DNA of 64,000 nt from Armatimonadota bacterium. Lineage in GTDB: Bacteria > Armatimonadota > UBA5829 > DSUL01. Positions 35,706 through 51,807 of the stretch are shown in pieces; within the stretch, counting starts at the first letter, position 1, and the number at the start of each line of letters is the position of its first letter. The notes below the pieces were generated by a model, which did no database searches, was not told where the DNA came from, and saw nothing but the letters and a program-made list of their open reading frames with translations. The position numbers were made by a program, and so were the translations under genes. The stretch spans positions 1-64,000 of the forward strand of contig JADLDK010000005.1 in the NCBI GenBank assembly GCA_020846715.1. The letters run 5' to 3'.

Positions 35706-36743
35706 ATGGCGCCCAGGCCAACCATCAAGGATGTTGCGCGAGAAGCCAAAGTCTCTCACGCGACTGTCTCGTATATTCTGAATAACAACTGGCACGCTGA
35801 GCGCATCTCCGACGAGACCAAAGCCCGTGTCTGGAGCGCCGTCCACAAGCTTGGCTACAAGTTCAACTCTGTCGGTCGGGATCTGAAGCGCGGCTACACG
35901 AATCAGGTCACGGTCCTGGTAGTCACGTGGAATCTGGCGATCTCCCACGCCGCTACGGCTATGGCCATCAGCCGCGCGGCCGCGGACCGCGAACTTGAGG
36001 CCACCGTGCATGTTGCGGATACAGATCACGATGCGGACGCATTCCTCCGGCGGAGAATGCTGCACAACACTGGCGGCATTCTTGTATTGTGGGATTCTCC
36101 GGCTATGAGTGACAGCTCCCTGGCGCAGCTCGCCTCCGAAGGTCTGCCCGTAGTGGACCTGTTGCCAGGCAGCCCTGAAGGCATATCCCTTGTGGCGACC
36201 GACAGGGAAGACGCAGGTTTTCAGATTGCGTCGTACTTACTGAGCCTGGGGCATCGCCACATCGGGTTCATTGGAGATTTTGCCTCCCGCGCAAAGACTT
36301 CTATGAGCAAGCTGGCCGGTTGCAGGAGGGCTCTTGAGTCGGCAGGCCTGTCTGTCACGGATGAAGACATTGAGAGCGTTTCCGAGTTTGGGTTTGACGC
36401 CGGGTACCATGCGCTGCCGCTTCTGCTGGAGAAGCAGCCTGAGACCACGGCGATCTTCTGCATAAACGACCCCATGGCCATCGGCGCTATTACCGCGGCG
36501 CGCGAGTGTGGCCGGCGTTGCCCGGAAGACATCTCCATTGTTGGCTACGGCGCTTTTCCGGAGTCCGCGTACTGGCAGCCTCCTATCACAACCTTCGCCC
36601 TCTCACCGGACCGCGTCGCAACGCAGGCGCTTGATCTGATCGTTCGGCGGCGGCGCGACCCGGCCGCCCCGCCCGAAGTTATTCTTATCCCCGGGGAGCT
36701 GATCATTCGCGGGTCCACAGCGCCTGCGCTCAGGTCTCTGTAA
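35706..36743 (+). CDS. LacI-family transcriptional regulator
   Basis: A 345-residue repressor. The N-terminal helix-turn-helix TIKDVAREAKVSHATVSYIL (residues 6-25) is textbook LacI; a hinge and a periplasmic-binding-protein-like effector domain follow (VLVVTWNLAISHAATAMAIS, HRHIGFIGDFASR, TAIFCINDPMAIGAI). ATG at 35706 is fixed by CGGAGG seven bases upstream. The effector is probably a sugar. Proximity to the GTTACnCGnGTAAC operators makes it the first candidate for their regulator, but this is inference. A 35-base shorter spacing to the palindrome would be usual for autoregulation. Confidence 0.94.
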   Translation: MAPRPTIKDVAREAKVSHATVSYILNNNWHAERISDETKARVWSAVHKLGYKFNSVGRDLKRGYTNQVTVLVVTWNLAISHAATAMAISRAAADRELEATVHVADTDHDADAFLRRRMLHNTGGILVLWDSPAMSDSSLAQLASEGLPVVDLLPGSPEGISLVATDREDAGFQIASYLLSLGHRHIGFIGDFASRAKTSMSKLAGCRRALESAGLSVTDEDIESVSEFGFDAGYHALPLLLEKQPETTAIFCINDPMAIGAITAARECGRRCPEDISIVGYGAFPESAYWQPPITTFALSPDRVATQALDLIVRRRRDPAAPPEVILIPGELIIRGSTAPALRSL

Positions 36744-39673: not shown

Positions 39674-42349
39674 TTACGGGTTGTCCACGATTGTAACGAT
39701 GTTGCTGGCGCTCCACGGTTTGACTATGCGAACCGCGTTGGCCGGCGAAGAGCCTTCAAGTGTGGCGATGCCTTCTACCGATACCACGTCTCCCACTCCG
39801 GGGTAGATAACGGTCAGGGACGGGTCAATCACCACTTTGACGATGTCAGATCCGTCATCGACAGTGAAGGATCCACTGTCAACCTGTCTCACCGTGCCTG
39901 CAATGGCCACTTTGTGGGCTGTCATACTCAGTCCCACATCCACACGGCTTGCGTCTCGTCCGTTAGCCCACAGCGCCATCAGCGGATCTGGAAGTGTGAA
40001 CGGGTCGTCACTCCAGGAGTTCGCCTGGATGTACTTTTCTCCCGTTGCAGGGTCCGTCATCATCGATCCGTAGATCTTGGCAAAGCGGTTCACGCGGAGA
40101 TCCAGTGACGTCCAGGGCTGGAAGAGCCTCACCTGCACACCGGAGCTGCGATCCTGCTCTTCAAGGTACAGCCGGTTGCCATTCTGGATTTTGTTTGGTG
40201 TATCGGCGCCCCACTGAGCTGTAATGACCTTTCCGCTCAGAATCACGTCCCCGGACGCCGCTTTGGCGGCTGCAATGCTGCTGTAGCTTCCGGCTTCCGG
40301 CGCAGGCTCTGTCTTGGAGACTTTTACGCTCTTGATCCAGTCAGGACCGACTTCCGGCGGGTAGAGATTGTTCGTATAGTCATACTGCTTGTAGGCAGTG
40401 ACTCGGAAATCAGCATCAATGTCGGACTTACCAAGCAGACTGTCACCCATCGCATTTGCGAAGCTGACCTTTGTCGCTTTGAAAGTGCGCGTCTTGTAGC
40501 TGTTGGACTGCGGAGCGCTCTTGTAGATGTCACCGATAGGGCTTGCCCACAGTGACGCATCCTGCAAGGTGAAATCTCCATGCACACCGAGCGCGTCCCA
40601 TCCCGCCGCGGCGGTGGAGGTGTCCAGATACTCAACAGTGATCCAGACCGTGTCGGTAGGTGACCCGCGGTAGAGCCAGTTGTCATCCACATTGAAGTTC
40701 AGATAGTTGTCCAGCGACCGGTCTGCGCTGCGCATATTGTTGCCGCTGGGGCCCGAGACACTCGTGTTGTTGCTGGCGCCAATCTGCGTAACATTGAAAG
40801 CTCCGCCATTAGGGTCGGGCATAGGTGTCACGCGCCCGCCGTAGCGGTTGAACTGGTTGAACAGGCCACTCTCTTCACCGACTCTGTACCGGCCGGTCGT
40901 GTCCCCAGGCATCGGCGCCAGGCTGTTCCATGTGAGGGTGTTCGATCCAATCGCGCTCAACGTCGCATTGACAACTGTATCGCCAGCGAGAGGTTGCAGG
41001 TGTACGCGCTTCGAAAGATAACCGTTTGCGTTGACGCTGACGATGCACGCCTCAGGAATGTCCGCGCCGCTGGTGTCAAGCGGGGGCACTGCGAGTGAAT
41101 ACTCACCATTGGCATTGGTCACACCGGAGAACTCCTTGGCGCCCCGGAATATCCGCGTCAGATAAGTGCTGGGCAGGTTGTACTCAATGTAGCCAACGCC
41201 CGCGCCCGCAATCGGGTTGCCTGTCGAAGCGTCAGTGATTCTGCCAGTGATATGTGTGAGCTGTGGAGTCTCCAGGGTAAAGGAGAAGCTTGCGGCCACC
41301 GCATAGAGACTTGTGGAGTCTTTGCCAGTGACAATCACCCGGTCATGCAGCCTGTCGTAGGCAAGGCTGTAGCCGGTATCAATATTGCTGCCGAGATCGA
41401 CAGTAGAAAACTTCAGCTCGGGCACGCTGTCCCGGTTCACTGCCCACACGCGGCGCACGCCGTCTCCATCCGTATTAGCTACGACAAACATGCGGTTCTG
41501 GGAGTCTGTGTCCACAGCGTAGCGGCTGGTGACGCGCTTGTCTGAGATGTTGTACTGTGCGGCGAGTTTGTACGGCGCGCTTCCGGAGTAGCGCAGTATC
41601 CAGTAGTCCGCTCCGCAGACGAGTACATCTCCGTTTCGGTCGAATGCGACATCGCGCGGAGATGACGTAAACTCGTAGTTGTCTCCAATCCCTGCGTAAT
41701 CGCCAAATCCCACCAGGTCAGCCGCGAAGTCCCATGTGTCGTCGCTGAAATCAGAGGGGGTTCCATTGAGGTTCCGAGTGTAGAGCTTGGCGCCGCTATC
41801 ATAAGGGTGCGCAGCTTTGTTCCACGATACCGCAAATTTCATTCCGTCGTCACTGAAAGCGCAGCCACGCGCTGTAATGCCGTCTGTGACAAACTTGCTC
41901 AGCCAGACTCCTGACGGACTCACAACATGAACTTCCCCCACAGCGGGAGAGCCGATGCTGCAGGACACGTACATGTTCTTGGTCTTCGGGTCAATAGCGA
42001 CGCCCCAGAGTCCGCCGCTGAGGCTGAGCTGCGTATTGCCTCCGCTGTCCTTGAAGTTAGGACCAAAGCGCGTAAGTTGCTCCGGCGCCAGTGACCCGCC
42101 GGGATTTCCGGTCCACGGGATCTTCACGATCTGGCGCGTCGTCCCCATCTCGATGGTCGCATAGACGTCACCGTTGGTCTGATCCACGTCCATGCCTCTT
42201 GTCACGTAAGAGCCGGTGTCACCCTGCAAATTGAGCTGTGCGAACCACTCCAAATTTGCAGTTCCCAGCGCAAAGCTGACGCCTGCGCTTCCGACAACAG
42301 CGCCTGTAACGAGCGCTGCGGTCATTGCTCCAACAAATCTCCTTTTCAA
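39674..42349 (-). CDS. large secreted protein: propeller, CarboxypepD_reg-like domain and beta-sandwich tail
   Basis: An 891-residue exported protein. TTG at 42349 is favoured by AGAGGAGG seven bases upstream and makes a clean signal peptide (MKRRFVGAMTAALV, then small residues). Residues about 30-365 have repeated blade-like strands (GVAIDPKTKNMYVSC, DVAFDRNGDVLVCGADYWIL). Residues about 370-470 match a carboxypeptidase-regulatory-like beta domain (GRITDASTGNPIAGAGV). The C-terminal part ends with an OB-like strand set (VAIAGTVRQVDSGSFTVDDG). No enzyme motif seen. An operator of the GTTAC type lies 144 bases upstream, so it belongs to the glycan regulon. Confidence 0.85.
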   Translation of the reverse strand: MKRRFVGAMTAALVTGAVVGSAGVSFALGTANLEWFAQLNLQGDTGSYVTRGMDVDQTNGDVYATIEMGTTRQIVKIPWTGNPGGSLAPEQLTRFGPNFKDSGGNTQLSLSGGLWGVAIDPKTKNMYVSCSIGSPAVGEVHVVSPSGVWLSKFVTDGITARGCAFSDDGMKFAVSWNKAAHPYDSGAKLYTRNLNGTPSDFSDDTWDFAADLVGFGDYAGIGDNYEFTSSPRDVAFDRNGDVLVCGADYWILRYSGSAPYKLAAQYNISDKRVTSRYAVDTDSQNRMFVVANTDGDGVRRVWAVNRDSVPELKFSTVDLGSNIDTGYSLAYDRLHDRVIVTGKDSTSLYAVAASFSFTLETPQLTHITGRITDASTGNPIAGAGVGYIEYNLPSTYLTRIFRGAKEFSGVTNANGEYSLAVPPLDTSGADIPEACIVSVNANGYLSKRVHLQPLAGDTVVNATLSAIGSNTLTWNSLAPMPGDTTGRYRVGEESGLFNQFNRYGGRVTPMPDPNGGAFNVTQIGASNNTSVSGPSGNNMRSADRSLDNYLNFNVDDNWLYRGSPTDTVWITVEYLDTSTAAAGWDALGVHGDFTLQDASLWASPIGDIYKSAPQSNSYKTRTFKATKVSFANAMGDSLLGKSDIDADFRVTAYKQYDYTNNLYPPEVGPDWIKSVKVSKTEPAPEAGSYSSIAAAKAASGDVILSGKVITAQWGADTPNKIQNGNRLYLEEQDRSSGVQVRLFQPWTSLDLRVNRFAKIYGSMMTDPATGEKYIQANSWSDDPFTLPDPLMALWANGRDASRVDVGLSMTAHKVAIAGTVRQVDSGSFTVDDGSDIVKVVIDPSLTVIYPGVGDVVSVEGIATLEGSSPANAVRIVKPWSASNIVTIVDNP

Positions 42350-42682
42350 AGCGAATCCTCCTCTCGAGGCCAACATTTGTCACCAGGCTGCGGACGCACA
42401 CTCTGCGGTGGCGCTCCGATCTCAGTTATATTCACGACGCCAGGAACCTTCGAGCCACAATTTAGCTAGCTTCCAGCTTAGTCAACTCTATGGTTACTCG
42501 TGTAACTTACGAGACAAACCAGAAAATCGTCCAAGTTTTCGTCGATGGTCTCAACAGTCTTGTGGGTTTCGCGGGAGCAGAGGACTAACGTCTCTGTCAT
42601 CGCCCGCGCTGGCACCTAGCCTTATCCATTTTATACCATTCGCCCCGCTGATTGTCAATCAAAATCGCAATTTTTCTGACTG
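42350..42682 (-). other. intergenic region with operator and weak promoter
   Basis: No gene seen. It holds the operator at 42493-42506 and a possible minus-strand promoter: TTGGAC at 42534-42529, 17 bases, CGTAAG at 42511-42506 (a weak -10). The 5' leader would be about 150 bases. No clear terminator for the xylanase gene was found here. Confidence 0.4.
42493..42506. promoter_or_regulatory. LacI-type operator 1
   Basis: GTTACTCGTGTAAC: the outer five bases form a perfect inverted repeat around a central CG. It overlaps the expected start of transcription of the large secreted protein gene (minus strand). Confidence 0.75.
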
Positions 42683-44236
42683 TTATTGCGCCGGAGTCGA
42701 GGTGCTTTTCTTCGGGTCGAGGTAATGATAGCCCCAACTGCGGATTAAGCTCTGAAGCCGCGTATAGGACGGCTTTGGCGAGAGATCGCCTCTGAGCATG
42801 CCGCCGTAAGGCCAGAAGCAGCCGATGTCCGGCAGATCCCAGTAAGAGACCGCGCCGATATAGGGCTTGCTGTAGAAAAGAGTGTAGGCCGCGACAATCC
42901 AGTCTGCCTGCATGTCCTCCGTCCACGGCCCGTGCCAGCCGGCAGTCGCCGCCTGGCGCTGGGCGTTCGGGTCCAGTCCTGGCGCTGAGGAGCACGCCAT
43001 CTCTGTGATGTGAATGGGTTTGCCCAGTGAGGCGTAGCGCTCCAGCATCCTGTCGATCTCCAGTAGATCAAACTGTGGATAGTACATCTGCAACCCGACG
43101 ATCTCAAATTTCACGCCTGCGTCTATGCACTCCTTGAGATAGCGGTACGGGGACCGGCGTTTCAGCCCTGCGCTCGTAAGCCTCGATGCGTAGTCCGCCC
43201 AGAGATGGGTGCAGTTGATGACGCGCAATACGTTCGGATCGGCTTCACGAACCGCTCTGGCGGACACGTCTGCAAGACGCACAAGCTGGTCCTGCGTCAG
43301 GTTCAAACCATTTGAAAGGTCGTGGGCCTCATTCACGATCTCACACGTCACAACCCTGCCTTTGTAGCGCTCTGTAACCTCCAGCATCAGATCGTGACAC
43401 GTTTTCTCAGTCTGGGCCCACTGCTTGTTTTTCATCCACTCCGGGCTGACTGAGCGGGCGAAGTAAAGCGGCGGACAGGTCTTGGCTGCCATTGCGTTCG
43501 ATCTGAGCCACTCAACCTGCGCGTCGGCCAGCGAGAAGTTGCGCTTATCCGGGCTGGGAGCGTAGTCGGTGAGGTAGAGATTGGCAGTGCCGTAGTTGAA
43601 CAGCTCTTTGAACCGCCGCTCATATTCAGGGCCGCGCCCCGGATAGCCGAAAGCGTTTGCCCCGAAGAGAAAGCCCTGTCTCGGCCCATCGTACCTCGAA
43701 ATCCGATATCTGGCCCGGGCAAGCGTCATCTCTTCCCCCGCAGTGAGCAGTCTGGCCAGCGCCGGGTACGGCTCCAGTTTTTCAGATTCGCTGATCGCCT
43801 TCTCTACCGCCGAAGGGATGGGACACAGCTCCCGCTTCGCCTCCTTTACCGCTTTGATGACTCGTTCTCGCCGTGTCTTTGCCGCCTCTGCGACAAAATC
43901 CACTGTGTTGGCTGTGGAGAATCCTTTGCCGCTGTTGTCTGCATAGACGTCCACTTCGCCAAAGCCAGGGACCACGAACAGCGTGCACACCTGTATCGGC
44001 TCAGCAGGTAACTCGATGACAGCCTGTCCATTTTTGAGTGTCACACGCGTGACGATCGGTTCATCGGACATGTCGCGACAGTGAAATCGGCGGATGTTTT
44101 CCTTCGAGATGGGATTGCCGTCGCTATCCGTCAGGTTGATTCGGAGCGGTTGAGGCGCGGCCAGAGCCACGCCGGAGGCCGTGGCTATAACCAGTGTTGC
44201 CAGACCTAGCAGCGCTGTTCGAAAAACCGTCTTCAT
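42683..44236 (-). CDS. secreted GH10-type endo-1,4-beta-xylanase
   Basis: A 517-residue protein with a signal peptide (residues 1-26), an N-terminal beta domain (about 27-110), a helical linker, and a GH10-like barrel from about residue 185. The acid/base is Glu303 in TCEIVNEAHD and the nucleophile Glu412 in HITEMACS, both in the GH10 positions; QMYYPQ lies between them. Such enzymes cut xylan, outside the cytoplasm here. It ends the minus-strand unit that begins with the GH42-like gene, seven bases upstream. Exact substrate not determinable by eye. Confidence 0.88.
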   Translation of the reverse strand: MKTVFRTALLGLATLVIATASGVALAAPQPLRINLTDSDGNPISKENIRRFHCRDMSDEPIVTRVTLKNGQAVIELPAEPIQVCTLFVVPGFGEVDVYADNSGKGFSTANTVDFVAEAAKTRRERVIKAVKEAKRELCPIPSAVEKAISESEKLEPYPALARLLTAGEEMTLARARYRISRYDGPRQGFLFGANAFGYPGRGPEYERRFKELFNYGTANLYLTDYAPSPDKRNFSLADAQVEWLRSNAMAAKTCPPLYFARSVSPEWMKNKQWAQTEKTCHDLMLEVTERYKGRVVTCEIVNEAHDLSNGLNLTQDQLVRLADVSARAVREADPNVLRVINCTHLWADYASRLTSAGLKRRSPYRYLKECIDAGVKFEIVGLQMYYPQFDLLEIDRMLERYASLGKPIHITEMACSSAPGLDPNAQRQAATAGWHGPWTEDMQADWIVAAYTLFYSKPYIGAVSYWDLPDIGCFWPYGGMLRGDLSPKPSYTRLQSLIRSWGYHYLDPKKSTSTPAQ

Positions 44237-44243
44237 TCCCGTC

Positions 44244-46058
44244 TCACTTTCGTCGAATCAAATAGGCGCTTCGATGCGCCGGAACCGACAGCTGCCTGCC
44301 CTTCAGCCAGTGCGCAGGAAAGACTGTCGCATTGTCCACATCGTAGCTAACCGGTTTCGCACCGTGGTTGACAACTACCGTAACCGTGTAGTCTATCCCT
44401 TCCAGTGTACCGCTTTCCACGTCTGCTGTGGGGGCAAACTCACTCGTGCGCAGCTGGCCACACAGGCTCTGCACGGCCTTTCGCACCTGTGCCAGACCGT
44501 CCTCGGGCTGTGCGGGAAACGGAACTGTGACTATTTTCATTCCGCCCGCCTTTGCCTGTTCTAACAGCCCTTGGAACCGGGGCGAATAGCGGGCCTGCGG
44601 GACAATCAGAAGCTTGTAATCCTCCAGCTTTTTTGCGCTGGAAAAAACCCAGTCCACCGGCACATCTGCCTTCTGAAAGATCTGGTGCAGCGCTACCAGC
44701 TTTTTGTCGAGGGGCAACTCGTCGTTAGCGCACACAGAGTAGGCTTCATAAGGCATAACGATAGCGGCTTTTCTCGGGGCAGGCGAAGCGGCGTACACGT
44801 ATGAGGCGACCTTCTGAAACTCGAAGTTGGCCTCTTTGGCTTCTTCGCAGGCTGCCTTCTGCCACAACTCCGCGCCTCTTTCACGCCTTCCAGTTGCGGC
44901 AATTCCCGCCCGGTCGTCGCGCTCGTTATATCCGTAATGCATCGCGAGAAGCCCCCGCAGCGCCACAACGCCCAACATCTCAGACTGCCCCCACGGACGG
45001 TGGAACTCAACGGGCCTGGCCGTGTAAGCCTTGTAGCCGGAGTCCAGGTAGTAATCCAGTGCGCCCATCCGGCCCCCCGCAGCGGACTTGATGAGGTCGG
45101 CTTCGGCCAGCACGTATTCTATGCCGTCGTCGCCGTCGTGCTCGCTCCCAATGATGTCAAAAGAGTCCCACAGCTCCGGGCGAATGGCTCTGTGTCCGAT
45201 GCCGCCCGCATCCACGCCGCTTTTTGATCCTTCCAGCAGGCCATGCTGGCGGAAGATGACCATAGTATAGAGGTCCGGGTAGCGCTGTTTCAGGCCGCGC
45301 GACACGCGGCTCCAACCGGTGCTCAGGTCTTCAGCCCGGAAATCGTTCCAGCTTATCAGCGCGTCGAGCTGGCCCGTGTCCGTACTCTTTGGCGGTTCCT
45401 GCCACTTGACTTCCCCGAGAGTGTCCTTCTGGTAGCGCCGCCAGGCCTCTTTTGAGCCTTCGGAGTAGTCTATCCAGTGCCCATCGTAGTCGGTCATCCC
45501 CGTTTCATAAATAACGATCATCACCGGATGCAGCTTGCCATCGCGTCCCATAATGCGCGTGTAGGCCGGATCTTTGATATAGCGATCCAGCACCTGCGAC
45601 TGGTACTCGACCATGACACGCGAGAACGTGGAGTCGTTGTAGCGCAGATTGCAGCCGATACAAAAACCGGTGGGCCCTTCTCCGGTCTCCGTCACTGGCA
45701 GGGTGACACGTGAGAAGAAGTCTCCTCCGGCGTGGAAGGCGGCGTTCCATTGATTGGGCAGGACGTAGAGGTGATTCTTGCCAGCCTGCTGATAGTAGCG
45801 GTCCCAGACCGGTCCCAGCGACAGGTGAATGTAGTCAGTGAAGGCTACTGTCCATCCCCTGTCTGCGACGTCCGCAATGTCTCTATCCAGCAGGTCGTCC
45901 TCGGCAGGGTAGTCGTAGAAGCGCTCGTAATACATCGTCGCGATGAACGGACGCCCGTCCGGCAACATGCCCGGGTAGCCGTCAATCTCGGGTAGCCCCA
46001 GCGCGGCAGAACTCATGAGCAAAACCCCCAGCACAACCAGTGCGCTCCACGTCATCAT
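44244..46058 (-). CDS. secreted GH42-like glycoside hydrolase (putative)
   Basis: A 604-residue exported protein. ATG at 46058 has GAGGGAG eight bases upstream and opens a signal peptide (MMTWSALVVLGVLLMSSAAL). The catalytic region looks like a (beta/alpha)8 barrel, with a possible acid/base Glu in VIYETGMTDYDG and a second Glu in ARPVEFHRPWGQSE. Residues about 430-560 resemble the GATase-like trimerisation domain of GH42 (KAAIVMPYEAYSV, KLEDYKLLIVPQARYS), and a beta domain ends the protein. Family assignment is tentative. First gene of the minus-strand unit, with an operator 210 bases upstream. Confidence 0.75.
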   Translation of the reverse strand: MMTWSALVVLGVLLMSSAALGLPEIDGYPGMLPDGRPFIATMYYERFYDYPAEDDLLDRDIADVADRGWTVAFTDYIHLSLGPVWDRYYQQAGKNHLYVLPNQWNAAFHAGGDFFSRVTLPVTETGEGPTGFCIGCNLRYNDSTFSRVMVEYQSQVLDRYIKDPAYTRIMGRDGKLHPVMIVIYETGMTDYDGHWIDYSEGSKEAWRRYQKDTLGEVKWQEPPKSTDTGQLDALISWNDFRAEDLSTGWSRVSRGLKQRYPDLYTMVIFRQHGLLEGSKSGVDAGGIGHRAIRPELWDSFDIIGSEHDGDDGIEYVLAEADLIKSAAGGRMGALDYYLDSGYKAYTARPVEFHRPWGQSEMLGVVALRGLLAMHYGYNERDDRAGIAATGRRERGAELWQKAACEEAKEANFEFQKVASYVYAASPAPRKAAIVMPYEAYSVCANDELPLDKKLVALHQIFQKADVPVDWVFSSAKKLEDYKLLIVPQARYSPRFQGLLEQAKAGGMKIVTVPFPAQPEDGLAQVRKAVQSLCGQLRTSEFAPTADVESGTLEGIDYTVTVVVNHGAKPVSYDVDNATVFPAHWLKGRQLSVPAHRSAYLIRRK

Positions 46059-46267
46059 TTGCACGTCTCCCTCTCTGTCAAGACCATCTCCCTCAGAGCG
46101 CTTATGCGCCTGGGCAAACACAATTCCTCCACCATTTGCCCCTGCCTTCCCATCACCAACCTGCGGCCAGATTTCCAACAGTGTCGCCGTGGTCAGGATT
46201 GCGTGGCGCTACCGACGCCATAAGCCGACCTCTACAATCGGCGCAGCGGTGTTCGCCTGCCTTGCAG

Positions 46268-46281
46268 GTTACTCGTGTAAG
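46268..46281. promoter_or_regulatory. LacI-type operator 2
   Basis: GTTACTCGTGTAAG, identical to operator 1 except for the last base. It coincides with the predicted transcription start of the minus-strand GH42-like/xylanase unit. Confidence 0.72.
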
Positions 46282-46284
46282 CCA

Positions 46285-46314
46285 ATAGTGCCATTCAGAT
46301 GAGGGCCATGTCAA
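46285..46314 (-). promoter_or_regulatory. promoter of the GH42-like/xylanase unit
   Basis: Consensus -35 TTGACA (46314-46309), 18-base spacer and a weaker -10 CACTAT (46290-46285) on the minus strand. Start of transcription would fall in operator 2. Confidence 0.5.
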
Positions 46315-46374
46315 GCATCTTCTTTCACAGGCAAAGTGTCTGGCTTCAGATTTTCGTTTTAGCAAAATTACCAG

Positions 46375-46403
46375 TTGTAGAATTTTACTCGACGTGTTAT
46401 TCT
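46375..46403 (+). promoter_or_regulatory. promoter of the PEP-CTERM protein gene
   Basis: TTGTAG, 17 bases and TATTCT on the plus strand; the start of transcription would be near 46410, at the edge of operator 3. Confidence 0.55.
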
Positions 46404-46409
46404 AATTCA

Positions 46410-46423
46410 GTGACACGTGTAAC
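46410..46423. promoter_or_regulatory. LacI-type operator 3
   Basis: GTGACACGTGTAAC differs from the consensus GTTACnCGnGTAAC at one base and keeps the central CG. It sits at the predicted start of the plus-strand transcript. Confidence 0.7.
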
Positions 46424-46528
46424 TTGGCGCTCTGCTCCCGGTTGCACGCGATGCTGGAAGGCCGCTGTGAGGTAGGCTCGATCCACACTGTCGCGGTGTT
46501 GTCAGGCTCCCGGCTAAAGAGGAGTGCA

Positions 46529-46552
46529 ATGCCAATCTATTCTGGAAGGTGA
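46529..46552 (+). CDS. possible seven-codon leader peptide
   Basis: ATG with GAGGAG four bases upstream opens MPIYSGR and stops with TGA at 46550-46552, within the binding site and five bases before the ATG of the PEP-CTERM gene. The context is suggestive but so short an open frame can arise by chance. Confidence 0.3.
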   Translation: MPIYSGR

Positions 46553-46557
46553 AAAAG

Positions 46558-47427
46558 ATGAACAAAGGAGTTTTCCGCGGCCTGATGAGTCTCGGGCTGC
46601 TCTACACTGCTTTTAGCGGTGTACTGCTTTCTTCGCGTGTCCAAGCTGCGCCGTACGTCATTCAGGGTGAAGACATCAAAGCCTCGTCTGACTGGGTGGA
46701 CAAAACGGGCTCCGGCACGGTGGTGGACGCAGCATCCGGCCCCGTGGCGGATGCCAGCGCCAGCATGGGGCAGGCGCTTCAGATTCTTGATGAGGATCCT
46801 ACTGACGATTCTGTCGGCAATAGCGCCTGGCTGCGCACAACGACGGCTGCGGGTGACTTTCGCTCTGATCCCAACGAGACCGCTGGAACTGCGACTGCTG
46901 TGTTTCGTATGCGCACAGGAGATGCCAGCGCACCCGGCTTTGCGGACACCAAATATACGCGCAGTGTCATCCTCAGCTTCGCGCAGGACGGCTCTCGCGC
47001 ACGCCGCGGTATTGGTTTTGCCATTAGGCCAGACAAACTCGCGGTTGTCACGACGACCGTCGGCCTGGTCACCGGACCAGGAGCGGAAGTCACCGGACTG
47101 GATAATACCGGTTACCATATCTACACTATCGTTGCGCGCGACTACGGATACAAATTCGACGTCTATCGCGACGGTACGTTGATCATCAACAACGCGTCCA
47201 ACAACTCTGCGACGGAAAGCGCTCTGGGTGGCACTCCCGGACTGGATGGGCTCACCATCGGTTCGTCTCCGCGGTTGTCGATGGGCGAGTTTTATCTTGA
47301 CTGGATCGGCTACGGCCCTGGTGAGCATCCTGAGTGGAGCAACACCATCGTACCGGAGCCGACTTCTCTCACAGTCCTGGCGCTCGGCCTTGGCGGTCTC
47401 TTGAGGCTGCGCGTCAGGCGAAAGTAG
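46558..47427 (+). CDS. PEP-CTERM sorting-domain protein
   Basis: A 289-residue exported protein with a signal peptide (residues about 1-30) and a C-terminal PEP-CTERM signal: VPEPTSLTVLALGLGGLL followed by a basic tail. Such signals are processed by an exosortase, leaving the protein in the envelope or extracellular matrix. The middle (residues about 40-250) is beta-rich, perhaps a carbohydrate-binding sandwich, but I recognise no family. ATG 46558 with GGAAGG nine bases upstream is preferred to a GTG nine bases earlier. A perfect hairpin terminator follows. No exosortase is in the window. Confidence 0.88.
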   Translation: MNKGVFRGLMSLGLLYTAFSGVLLSSRVQAAPYVIQGEDIKASSDWVDKTGSGTVVDAASGPVADASASMGQALQILDEDPTDDSVGNSAWLRTTTAAGDFRSDPNETAGTATAVFRMRTGDASAPGFADTKYTRSVILSFAQDGSRARRGIGFAIRPDKLAVVTTTVGLVTGPGAEVTGLDNTGYHIYTIVARDYGYKFDVYRDGTLIINNASNNSATESALGGTPGLDGLTIGSSPRLSMGEFYLDWIGYGPGEHPEWSNTIVPEPTSLTVLALGLGGLLRLRVRRK

Positions 47428-47490
47428 TGTTGCTTCTCATACTCCTTCGAGAACAGTGAGACTGCGTGCCGCAGTTGAGCTACACTAATG

Positions 47491-47523
47491 CGAGGCCCTC
47501 CGAGTTCATCTCGGAGGGCCTCG
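47491..47523 (+). terminator. terminator of the PEP-CTERM gene
   Basis: A perfect 14-bp stem (CGAGGCCCTCCGAG with CTCGGAGGGCCTCG, loop of five) 64 bases after the stop. The T-rich tail is short (TGTCTGT). Confidence 0.7.
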
Positions 47524-47588
47524 TGTCTGTCAGAGGCGACACAGATTCATCTTTGAACAAGGAAGCTCCGAGCGCAGCGCAGAAACCC

Positions 47589-47617
47589 TTGACAGTTTGG
47601 CTCCCAACCATTACGAT
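47589..47617 (+). promoter_or_regulatory. promoter of the glycoside hydrolase/transporter operon
   Basis: Consensus -35 TTGACA, exactly 17 bases, then -10 TACGAT. Transcription should start near 47624, giving a leader of only about 20 bases that contains operator 4. Confidence 0.75.
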
Positions 47618-47628
47618 GAGCGCACGAG

Positions 47629-47642
47629 GTTACACGAGCAAC
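47629..47642. promoter_or_regulatory. LacI-type operator 4
   Basis: GTTACACGAGCAAC, one base off the consensus, with central CG. It ends one base before the ATG at 47644, between promoter and coding region. Confidence 0.72.
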
Positions 47643-47643
47643 C

Positions 47644-50478
47644 ATGCTTTTCTCACACCGTTCTATACAGCTCTTCGCCGCCGCTGTTGTGTTCAGCGCA
47701 ACTGGCGCTGCCGTGCTTCCACCGGCGAACTCGGCAACTGCTGAGCCCGTGCTCACCATCCGCAACAACCATGACACTCCCATTGAGGGGTCTCTGGAGT
47801 TTGCTGTCAGCGTGCCGGATGGCTTGTATTCCGCGCCCGCGGCCCACGCGCTCGTTACAGACAGAGTGGCTCGCTTTGAGGGTACACTGGCGGCTCAGCG
47901 CTCGCTAAGGTTGATCAAGTCTGCACGGTCCGCACGGTCCACCGGTCTGACTCACGCGAAGGTGACGCCCGCGCAAGCTCTCAGCGATCCCTTCGGCTCC
48001 GGGCGGCTTCGCGTTGATTATGGGTTTGTTGTTCTTCCGGGAACCTCCGCGGACACCGCGGACGTCGTTGCTGCCTACCACCCAATCGAAGTCCAACCCG
48101 CGGCATCAGGCGCATCGGCTGAGATGAAAGCCTCCGTCTCCGGCTACAGCATTAATTTGACGGCCAATGCATTCGCGACAGCAGTTGAGTATACGGCGCG
48201 CATTAGAAATACGAGAGAGTCCGCGGAGCCCGCGTACGTAGCCTTCGTGCGCAGAGTGCGCCTGAGGGCTCCTGAAGCTTTCAAGACACGCTACAACGGC
48301 AGCTACTTTGACAGCCTGAAGGCGCCTGAGTGGGATCGTGAGTTCTGGTACGTTAGAGGAGTAGACTGGTGCTCCTGGCGGCAGGGCACAGAGAGCTTCG
48401 CCATGATCAACGGCGTGACTCCGGGGTTCATGGCTCAGGCAGAAAAGGGCAACTGGATTGTCGCCAACCACTTCTACGTCTGGGACAAAGTCATCCGGCA
48501 CGGTGAGGATCTGTACTTTGTCTCCGAGATCGCTGGGCCCAACCCGGAGCAGGCGACCTCCAGCTTCATCCGCGTCAGTGAATACACTCAGCCGCGCCCG
48601 GATCAACCATTGACTCTGCGGTGGCGACTGGCGCGTCCTGTGAAAGCGTCTGGCAACTGGCAGGATGCGCAGCTTCTCGGATACGCCGGTGTCAGGACGC
48701 TGACTCAGGACAGTATGGGTTGCACGGTCGATCTCGGCGTGCGCGGTGTGGAGTTCGGCACGAGCTACTTTCCGTATTCGACGTTCACCGAAAACTTTGA
48801 CTACTACCGCGTAAAGGGGCTGGATCGGGAGACCTGGTGGCCCTTCTCCCCGGCGCAATGGGAGCGCTGGCGGGATTACAAACCACAGATGCGCACGGAC
48901 CTGCGAATCATCAAGGCGATGGGAATGCAGTGGGTGCGGCTGCACCATCTGGAGCTTCTCGGGCAGATGGATCGCGCCAACGCGCTGGCATTCCTCGACT
49001 TCTACACATCCGAGTGCAAGAGTCTGGGTCTCAGAGCTCTAATTGATACGGCAGGCTCCCAAAGCTGGCTTCAGACGCTTGTTGGACGCTACAAAGACGT
49101 AGTCAAGCGAGTAGAGCTGGAGAATGAGGTTCTGATTCCAGGCATCCAGCCTGGCGCGCCGGAGCGCTGGACCTCTCTGTATAAGGCCGTCAAACAGGTG
49201 GCGCCGGAGACTCAAGTGTTTCTGACGGGTACGGCAAATCAGGCGGTCTGGGAATCTCTTCAGCGCTTTGGAGTGCCTTTCGATCGGGTCGGGCTGCACA
49301 TGTACAAGCACGGTCCGGGGGATGAGCAGGCTTTCCGCTCTCTGGCGTTGGGCGTCGGCGCTCACGCGTCACAGATGGACAGAGCGGTTACGCTTGGTGA
49401 GTTCAACTGGAAAGAGTTGACGCGCCTGAGTCCGGAGGAGCGCGCGCGCAGGTTTGCGCTCATCTACGGCGAGATGCTTCAGCCACGCGCCATCCCGGAG
49501 TTTCTCGAGTTTCACTTTCAGGAGACGCTGTCTGTAAATCCGCGCGTGTCCCGTCAGGGCGTGCGCCACTACGAAATCGTCAATCTCGACCGCTGCCCGA
49601 AGCCAGAAACCTATGAGTTCTTGAAACTCATCAGAAAGTACGCCCCTGCGGATTCCCCGATCAAAGAGCTTGATATCAGCATGCCGCAGGTGACGTTGCA
49701 GAAAGGTTCCGCAGCGGCGGAGTTCACCGTGAAGAACCTCACCGCCCGCACGCTGCAAATCGGCCTGACAGCCGAGGCTTTTGACGGTCTTCAGATGGTG
49801 TTTACGCGAAAGCCTGTGCTGTCTGTGAAGCCGGGACAAAGCATCCGTCTGCCAGTCAGGCTTACGCTCTCTGAAAATCTGCCTGGCGCCTATCATGCTT
49901 TCGTCCGGATAGACTACGCGGGCAAGTCTGCGTATGGTTGGCTGATTGCTTCCAACCCTGGCGCTCCGCGCTTTGAAAAGGAATCGGTGCTTCCAGACCT
50001 TGTCAGGTACGAGGGCGGCGCCGAGATTGTCAGCCAGATCAACTGGGTCAAGCCCACGTGTGTGACGTTTGCGCCGGATGCGCCGGTACTGGAGCTGGAG
50101 ATGGCTTATCTGATTCGCAACACGCTGCAGACAGCGACAGGGCAAAGTGTGTATCTGTGCCAGTCGGACCAGACGCCAGACCGTTTCAGGACGGCCGGCC
50201 TGATAATCCAGGTCGCCTCCCGGACCAACAAGTCCACCCGAAAGAATCTGAAAGACGATCTGAAAGGCGAGGCCGAGGGTGTTATGCGCCTTCGGCCGGG
50301 ACAGCCGGTTGTGCTTGAGGTTACGGGTGAGAATGCGGAAGATGTGGAGGCGGCGGCCGTTGACTTTGTTCTGCGCTACTGGAAAAACACCAGAAGTGCC
50401 GCCATCGCGCTAACAGGTCTGGAAAAGGGCGCTGCGCTTGGCAACCGCGCTATGGTCACCGAAGTGAATCCGCCGTAG
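47644..50478 (+). CDS. large secreted clan-A-like glycoside hydrolase (putative)
   Basis: A 944-residue exported protein (signal peptide to about residue 32). Residues about 35-385 are beta-sandwich-like. Residues about 400-660 look like a TIM barrel with Asn494-Glu495 in VELENEVLIPG as acid/base and Glu586 in TLGEFNWKE as nucleophile, the clan GH-A layout. A beta domain with NEW3-like character follows (about 680-770), and the last 150 residues resemble the helper domain found before hexosaminidase-type barrels (RTAGLIIQVAS, then LRYWKN). I cannot place it in a numbered family. First gene of a four-gene operon. Confidence 0.75.
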   Translation: MLFSHRSIQLFAAAVVFSATGAAVLPPANSATAEPVLTIRNNHDTPIEGSLEFAVSVPDGLYSAPAAHALVTDRVARFEGTLAAQRSLRLIKSARSARSTGLTHAKVTPAQALSDPFGSGRLRVDYGFVVLPGTSADTADVVAAYHPIEVQPAASGASAEMKASVSGYSINLTANAFATAVEYTARIRNTRESAEPAYVAFVRRVRLRAPEAFKTRYNGSYFDSLKAPEWDREFWYVRGVDWCSWRQGTESFAMINGVTPGFMAQAEKGNWIVANHFYVWDKVIRHGEDLYFVSEIAGPNPEQATSSFIRVSEYTQPRPDQPLTLRWRLARPVKASGNWQDAQLLGYAGVRTLTQDSMGCTVDLGVRGVEFGTSYFPYSTFTENFDYYRVKGLDRETWWPFSPAQWERWRDYKPQMRTDLRIIKAMGMQWVRLHHLELLGQMDRANALAFLDFYTSECKSLGLRALIDTAGSQSWLQTLVGRYKDVVKRVELENEVLIPGIQPGAPERWTSLYKAVKQVAPETQVFLTGTANQAVWESLQRFGVPFDRVGLHMYKHGPGDEQAFRSLALGVGAHASQMDRAVTLGEFNWKELTRLSPEERARRFALIYGEMLQPRAIPEFLEFHFQETLSVNPRVSRQGVRHYEIVNLDRCPKPETYEFLKLIRKYAPADSPIKELDISMPQVTLQKGSAAAEFTVKNLTARTLQIGLTAEAFDGLQMVFTRKPVLSVKPGQSIRLPVRLTLSENLPGAYHAFVRIDYAGKSAYGWLIASNPGAPRFEKESVLPDLVRYEGGAEIVSQINWVKPTCVTFAPDAPVLELEMAYLIRNTLQTATGQSVYLCQSDQTPDRFRTAGLIIQVASRTNKSTRKNLKDDLKGEAEGVMRLRPGQPVVLEVTGENAEDVEAAAVDFVLRYWKNTRSAAIALTGLEKGAALGNRAMVTEVNPP

Positions 50479-50529
50479 CTTAGGCGCTGGGGCAATCGCG
50501 GCCTGGTGCAGGCAGCAAGGAGTGGTCGT

Positions 50530-51807
50530 TTGAAGAAAATCCCGCATTTGAGATGGATCATCGTGGCGCTGTTGACCTTGATGACCATCATCAACTATCT
50601 GGATCGCAACGCGCTGGCAGTGGCGCAGACTGTCATTGAGGACGAGTTCCATCTCACGAACGCGGACTACGGTCACATTGTCACGTTCTTCCTCATTGCC
50701 TACGGCATTATGCACCCGATTATGGGCCGCATTATTGACCGCTTAGGCTCTCGCAAGGGCCTTACCTTTGCGTTTATCTGGTGGTCGGTTGCCAGCATGC
50801 TTCATGCTCTGTCTCGAGGAGCCCTCAGTCTGAAAGTATTCCGATTTACACTGGGGCTGGGAGAGGCGGCCAACTTCCCCGGCGCTGTCAAGACCGTTGG
50901 CGAGTGGTTTCCGGCGAAAGAACGCGCGCTTGCCACCGGTATTTTCAACATGGGGGCCGGTATTGGTGGCGCTCTGGCGATGCCGGTGGTCGGCCTCATT
51001 ATCTACCACGCCGGCTGGCGTGAGGCGTTCATTTTCACGGGACTGATCGGGTTCCTGTGGCTTATTCCGTGGTTGGCTCTGTCCTATACTCCTGAGCGTC
51101 ATCCCAGAATAACCCCTGAAGAGCTCGCCTATATCCGCGAGGGGCAACCTGCCGCGGTGAAGGAAGTTGTTGGCGCACCGATTGCGGAAGGTTCCTGGAA
51201 AGAGGCGATCGTCCGGCGAGACCTCTGGGTGTTGATGTTCGCGCGGTTTCTGGCCGATCCGGCCTGGCTGTTTTTCTCCTTCTGGATTCCCAAGTACTTC
51301 AAAGACGTTTACGATTTCGACGTCAAGAAAATTGCGATTTTCACCTGGATTCCGTTCGTCATGTCAGACTTCGGGAGTCTTTTTGGCGGCGCGGTGTCGT
51401 CGTTCTTTGTGAGGACTACGGGCAATGTCGTGCGCGCCCGCAAGCTCGGCATGGCTCTGTCGGCTGCTTTGATGCCGGTGGCGATCGTCGTCGTCCATAC
51501 GAAGGACTGGCGGATTGCGCTTCTGTGCCTGAGTGTCGCTGCCTTCGCGCACCAGAGCTGGTCGGCAAGCCTGCTGACATTCCCGACAGACATCTTTCCG
51601 AAGAGGATCGTCGCATCAGCGTATGGGCTCACCGGCATGGCGGGGGTGTTTGGCGGGGTCCTCAGTGAGGCCTACGTAGGCGGCGTGATTGACAAGTTCG
51701 GCTATTTTCCGGTGTTCACAATAGTGGGTCTTCTGCATCCGACCGGCGCGCTGATTACGTGGCTGGCCGTCCGGGGCAAGAGCTCATCTGAAGAGGTGGC
51801 GCAATGA
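50530..51807 (+). CDS. MFS transporter of the hexuronate (ExuT/ACS) type
   Basis: A 425-residue, 12-helix major facilitator protein. TTG at 50530 has AAGGAG seven bases upstream and gives the usual ExuT-like N-terminus (HLRWIIVALLTLMTIINYLDR). GLGEAANFPGAVKTVGEWFP is diagnostic of the anion:cation symporter group that carries hexuronates and related sugar acids. It lies between two secreted hydrolases, so it probably imports what they release, perhaps glucuronate or a short oligomer. Its stop overlaps the next ATG (ATGA). Confidence 0.9.
   Translation: MKKIPHLRWIIVALLTLMTIINYLDRNALAVAQTVIEDEFHLTNADYGHIVTFFLIAYGIMHPIMGRIIDRLGSRKGLTFAFIWWSVASMLHALSRGALSLKVFRFTLGLGEAANFPGAVKTVGEWFPAKERALATGIFNMGAGIGGALAMPVVGLIIYHAGWREAFIFTGLIGFLWLIPWLALSYTPERHPRITPEELAYIREGQPAAVKEVVGAPIAEGSWKEAIVRRDLWVLMFARFLADPAWLFFSFWIPKYFKDVYDFDVKKIAIFTWIPFVMSDFGSLFGGAVSSFFVRTTGNVVRARKLGMALSAALMPVAIVVVHTKDWRIALLCLSVAAFAHQSWSASLLTFPTDIFPKRIVASAYGLTGMAGVFGGVLSEAYVGGVIDKFGYFPVFTIVGLLHPTGALITWLAVRGKSSSEEVAQ

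Follow-up and report, generated by a model that had tools for sequence, protein, structure and literature searches.

Four copies of a 14-bp palindrome centred on CG lie in the window, the 64,000-nt stretch of an Armatimonadota bacterium (positions 1 to 64,000 of contig JADLDK010000005.1) that was analysed here, at or near the starts of glycan-related genes. We propose, with a probability of about 0.87, that these 14-mers are operators of the LacI/GalR-family regulator encoded at 35706, which would repress the genes behind them until relieved by a product of uronate breakdown; binding, repression and ligand are all inferred here from sequence and its comparison between genomes. An earlier note on this DNA had placed the sites at 42493, 46268, 46410 and 47629, and those coordinates proved exact (Table 1).

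The motif is rare in the host genome outside this locus. The draft assembly, 94% complete, spans 3.2 Mb in 69 contigs, about 92% of it covered by open reading frames (ORFs). A scan of all of it with GTTACNCGNGTAAC at up to one mismatch gave seven sites, four of them in one 5-kb stretch; just one, GTTAGCCGCGTAAC in proS, falls within coding DNA. With GTTACWCGWGTAAC, which has W at positions 6 and 9, up to one mismatch gave six sites against 0.24–0.46 expected from Markov models (orders 1–4, trained on 359 kb of the host genome); two perfect sites were seen where 0.004–0.008 were expected, and all six sites are intergenic. Such a scan had been put forward in the earlier note as a check, and its outcome is a clustered motif far over random frequency. 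Within the window, six sites have at most two mismatches, as compared with 1.02 expected, and none of 100 shuffles of the window reached six; the two extra sites (1799 and 44040) both lie within genes.

Beyond the window, the second perfect site, on contig C34, lies 20 bp before eda (TIGR01182), the gene for 2-keto-3-deoxy-6-phosphogluconate (KDPG) aldolase, which is followed by the sugar kinase gene kdgK, whose product finds its best matches in models of the 2-keto-3-deoxygluconate (KDG) kinase type at scores under their cut-offs. On contig C57, a site lies 78 bp before a heparinase-II/III-like gene, after which come genes for a sugar-binding protein and for two permeases of an ATP-binding cassette (ABC) transporter. 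A weight-matrix scan, covering selected stretches of the host genome, added a seventh, weaker site, GTTACACGATAAAC, on contig C46, 30 bp before a 987-amino-acid (aa) gene of glycoside hydrolase (GH) family 2, which probably also belongs to the regulon. The single regulon that had been proposed for the glycan locus is thus upheld in that its four units share the operator, but its extent is wider, taking in eda-kdgK and the lyase/ABC set. Because KDG/KDPG enzymes, transporters of this kind and lyases are among the targets, the gene content suggests uronic-acid-containing glycans as the substrates.

The operator is conserved along with the regulator. Close orthologues of the 35706 LacI occur in three other members of the class only: G019 (the Armatimonadota metagenome-assembled genome A05DMB-I-24; 59%), G012 (55%) and G010 (54%). 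The regulator gene lies in the same locus as its putative targets in the host and G019, and beside an operator-bearing divergent region in G010 and G012. The G019 contig reads, in order, lacI, pilin-like genes, an 858-aa gene, a GH42 gene and, in divergent orientation, a PEP-type gene, a 951-aa gene (its product 47% to the window's 944-aa protein), a major facilitator superfamily (MFS) gene and an 832-aa GH2 gene; GTTACACGATCAAC lies 9 bp past TATAAT before the 858-aa gene, an identical operator precedes the 951-aa gene, and GTGGCACGTTTAAC stands before the PEP-type gene, 10 bp past TTGCCA-17-TATAGT. In G012 and G010, the first two genes after an operator-bearing promoter are a GH42 gene and, 48 bp farther on, lacI, and the divergent region between that GH42 gene and the 944-aa orthologue holds two operators, one past each promoter. 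A search of 151 genomes (the host and 150 relatives) found the 944-aa gene in six; four of these have this LacI, and the operator is at the promoter of the 944-aa gene in all four. Two members of the class, G004 (99% complete) and G006 (97%), keep the 944-aa gene with a good promoter and are without this LacI, and there the operator is absent. G001 and G003 (the latter 69% complete), which belong to the host family, keep eda-kdgK (eda at 51–52%), and both site and LacI are absent. The comparison of orthologous loci, also suggested in the earlier note, therefore has the operator recurring with the LacI orthologue and missing where the LacI is missing.

The pooled operator set comprises 12 sites from three genera, one genome per genus. 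C7 and G8 are invariant in all 12 and the halves are inverted, so the LacI-like geometry ascribed earlier to the 14-mers agrees with the published survey in which almost every LacI-family site was an even palindrome, usually with CG at its centre and in most cases 30–140 bp upstream (Ravcheev et al. 2014, PMC4052901). Sigma-70-like promoters scoring at least 9/12 precede seven of the 12 operators, versus 2.1% of upstream positions, with 2–15 bp between the end of the -10 and the operator in those seven; the binomial value of 1e-9 for this association is overstated, as orthologous promoters are not independent. The window sites had been said to lie at or just past predicted transcription-unit starts, two of them (46410 and 47629) behind good -35/-10 pairs; those two pairs are indeed present, and a plausible promoter stands just before three of the four sites, but that of 42493 is weak by consensus. 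When operators are read in gene direction (the window's four and those of loci L025, L026, L209, L098, L124 and L049), position 6 is A in 12 of 12, and the eight asymmetric cores are all ACGA, none TCGT; as a symmetric dimer should be indifferent to orientation, use of the site in one orientation seems likely.

In the mechanism that we favour, a dimer of the 35706 LacI would bind GTTACWCGWGTAAC just downstream of each promoter's -10, cover the start site and block the initiation of transcription; simple repression is the most likely mode because an operator just past the -10 would cover that site. A breakdown product of a uronic-acid glycan (e.g., KDG or an aldouronate) may then bind the periplasmic-binding-protein-like domain and free the DNA, relief by a sugar ligand being general LacI-family behaviour. 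Release would turn on together the 900-aa gene, the GH42-like/GH10-like pair, the PEP-CTERM gene and the 944-aa/MFS/GH2/GH42 operon, and jointly with them eda-kdgK, the heparinase-like lyase with its ABC transporter and, probably, another GH2 gene. We give small weight to the reading that control is exerted chiefly by DNA looping between paired sites (46268 and 46410), or that the regulator activates instead of repressing. The two operators of that pair are 142 bp apart between divergent genes, and those of G010 and G012 are 104 bp apart; however, each paired operator lies just past its own -10, which is enough for simple repression and wrong for ordinary activation, and several targets have a single site.

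As to which protein reads the four operators, the comparison of sequences gives strong support to the 35706 regulator. Both of its domains score over cut-off (LacI helix-turn-helix PF00356, 58 bits; Peripla_BP_3 PF13377, 114.5 bits), its profile matches PurR over the full length (E 7e-52), and its NCBIfam matches are all under equivalog cut-offs. In an alignment of 13 LacI proteins the intercalating leucine of the hinge helix (L89) is invariant, and the protein has GRDLKRG where PurR has ARSLKVN. The DNA-reading triad H-A-Y is common to the regulators of the host, G019, G012 and G010, which form one clade in the tree (support 88/85); it is absent from the rest of the 13 aligned proteins and from the LacI proteins read from 80 loci, G019 itself excepted. 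This private triad and the adjacency to operator-bearing clusters in three genomes add weight to the choice of the 35706 protein as the nearest candidate. A slightly less probable alternative than looping or activation is that the operators are real and that another host LacI reads them, most plausibly the paralogue encoded on contig C29, either alone or alongside the 35706 protein. There are five LacI-family proteins in the host, and in G023 a C29-like LacI adjoins an MFS gene 62% identical to the window's; however, the C29 protein and its G020 and G023 relatives have other triads (QTY, QTF, QCY, VTY and others) with no such operator nearby, and only the H-A-Y clade has operators beside it. 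A palindrome search near the paralogous LacI genes found no shared alternative motif. The same LacI subfamily is present in five copies in G020 (L099–L105) and three in G023 (L100, L102) with differing recognition residues, and one subfamily copy (L104 3646–11354) lies near kduI and genes for a kduD-like dehydrogenase and MFS proteins.

That all of the sites are chance matches to a short palindrome is very improbable: isolated matches do occur at unrelated places in other genomes of the phylum, such as G018 and G058, but the genome-wide count, the clustering of intergenic sites and their retention at orthologous promoters, with loss where the LacI is gone, rule it out. Individual matches set aside as chance are those on host contigs C51 (in proS) and C61 (in a response-regulator ORF), and the G004 C53 match and most two-mismatch sites, which lie inside ORFs. 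The genes neighbouring the G018 and G058 sites are unrelated, the exception being one perfect intergenic site, GTTACACGTGTAAC, in G018 (L052 9983–9996), which stands 76 bp ahead of a GH38-like gene; G018 has no close orthologue of the LacI.

Several observations weigh against control of this regulon by the 35706 LacI. The support of its clade is moderate, and the C29 paralogue, the rival reader, is 42% identical to it. The G019 operators are two to three mismatches from the window consensus, and besides that of 42493, three more host promoters match the consensus weakly, those of eda, the heparinase-like gene and the C46 GH2 gene. The eda-kdgK operator is present only in the host genome; the eda genes of G010, G012 and G019 are of another lineage (29–32%) without the site, so that control of eda is not conserved in them. 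Finally, neither the host lacI nor that of G019 has an operator upstream, the best candidate having four mismatches. Autoregulation is common in LacI regulons (72% of studied cases) and not obligatory; it is likely in G010 and G012, judging from the position of lacI 48 bp past an operator-controlled gene.

Table 1. Putative operators, regulator and target genes in the window, with loci of a further protein in other genomes.
Feature	Coordinates	Strand	Remarks
Operator 1	42493..42506	-	GTTACTCGTGTAAC as at 42493; perfect GTTACACGAGTAAC in gene direction; 116 bp before 900-aa ORF
Operator 2	46268..46281	-	GTTACTCGTGTAAG as at 46268; CTTACACGAGTAAC in gene direction; 3 bp past TTGACA-18-CACTAT
Operator 3	46410..46423	+	GTGACACGTGTAAC; 6 bp past TTGTAG-17-TATTCT; 134 bp before ATG of PEP-CTERM-type gene
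Operator 4	47629..47642	+	GTTACACGAGCAAC; 11 bp past TTGACA-17-TACGAT; 1 bp before ATG of 944-aa gene
LacI/GalR-family regulator	35706..36743	+	345 aa from ATG at 35706; candidate repressor of the four operators
900-aa secreted protein	39674..42376	-	putative target of operator 1
GH10-like enzyme, 517 aa	42683..44236	-	second gene after operator 2; Pfam Glyco_hydro_10 4e-15
GH42-like protein	44244..46058	-	first gene after operator 2; ORF extends to TTG at 46178, likely ATG 46058
PEP-CTERM-type secreted protein	46558..47427	+	292-aa ORF from GTG at 46549
944-aa protein	47644..50478	+	first gene of operon; orthologues in 5/150 relatives
MFS transporter	50506..51807	+	nearest D-galactonate (anion:cation symporter, ACS) type; TIGR00893 8e-82, under the model's curated cut-off
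GH2 enzyme, 918 aa	51804..54560	+	47% to G019 832-aa protein at corresponding place
GH42-like enzyme, 620 aa	54557..56419	+	last gene of operon
345-aa protein, other genomes	L124 6421-7461; L049 13031-14068; L097 17235-18272; L223 416-1486; L224 412-1449		

Among the genes behind the operators, the 900-aa protein matches the G019 858-aa protein at 39.7% over 900 aa, and G019 alone among 60 relatives has an orthologue of its gene at E <= 1e-60. The PEP-CTERM-type protein is at 40.6% to a 285-aa protein of G019, where the gene order is the same. Operator 2 lies 209 bp from the likely ATG of the 644-aa ORF that follows it and 89 bp from that ORF's TTG; the GH42 assignment of this gene rests on a GH42M match that is weak and below threshold. 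The solved structures nearest to the 918-aa GH2 enzyme include beta-glucuronidases and a beta-galacturonidase, along with beta-galactosidases. The 944-aa protein has no Pfam, NCBIfam or PDB match of note; its conserved ELENE and GEFNW are such that it is possibly an undescribed TIM-barrel glycoside hydrolase, perhaps of a new GH family, and the two motifs resemble those of a retaining clan GH-A hydrolase. In five other genomes a 345-aa protein, uroporphyrinogen-decarboxylase-like by eye, comes directly after the 944-aa orthologue; it is absent from this place in the window. GTTACACGTATAAC precedes the gene of a 331-aa secreted protein in G012 and G010 (L047 10034–10047 and L050 9907–9920), a possible extra member of the regulon. 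Scanning the window for Rfam families and tRNAs returned no matches.

As a LacI-family sugar regulon, the system is of a well-known kind; its regulator, its operator and its set of genes appear to be new. In common with the described regulons (PMC4052901), it has an even CG-centred palindrome, an upstream position, sugar or glycan targets and a regulator near its targets; unlike them, it has a host lacI without an operator of its own. Six orthologous groups have been described for glucuronate/galacturonate, among them ExuR, KdgR, UxaR and UxuR (PMC4052901). The likeness to these four lies in the target genes, namely uronate/2-keto-3-deoxygluconate catabolism (here eda-kdgK) and transporters, and the position of the operator points to control of KDG kinase and KDPG aldolase genes, a trait of the KdgR/UxuR type; the targets here differ in including many secreted glycan-degrading enzymes. 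E. coli PurR, whose operator is CG-centred, is an end-to-end sequence relative with a solved structure, but the present regulator has about three more residues past the recognition helix, H-A-Y instead of T-T-H, and sugar rather than purine targets. We found no description of KdgR/UxuR/UxaR/ExuR-type uronate regulators from Armatimonadota, and a literature search on LacI regulons of the phylum found no paper on the orthologous group, operator consensus or gene set.

We suggest, tentatively and at somewhat less than even odds, that this is an undescribed Armatimonadota regulator of uronate-glycan use with operators in fixed orientation, whose scattered regulon marks a new GH family, represented by the 944-aa protein, together with an uncharacterised pathway of glycan degradation. 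In Armatimonadota, whose glycan genes are mostly unannotated, an operator with clear bounds lets function be read from association: through it, uronate catabolism gains a link to the 944-aa protein, which is unclassified, as well as to two transporters and several distant glycoside hydrolases.

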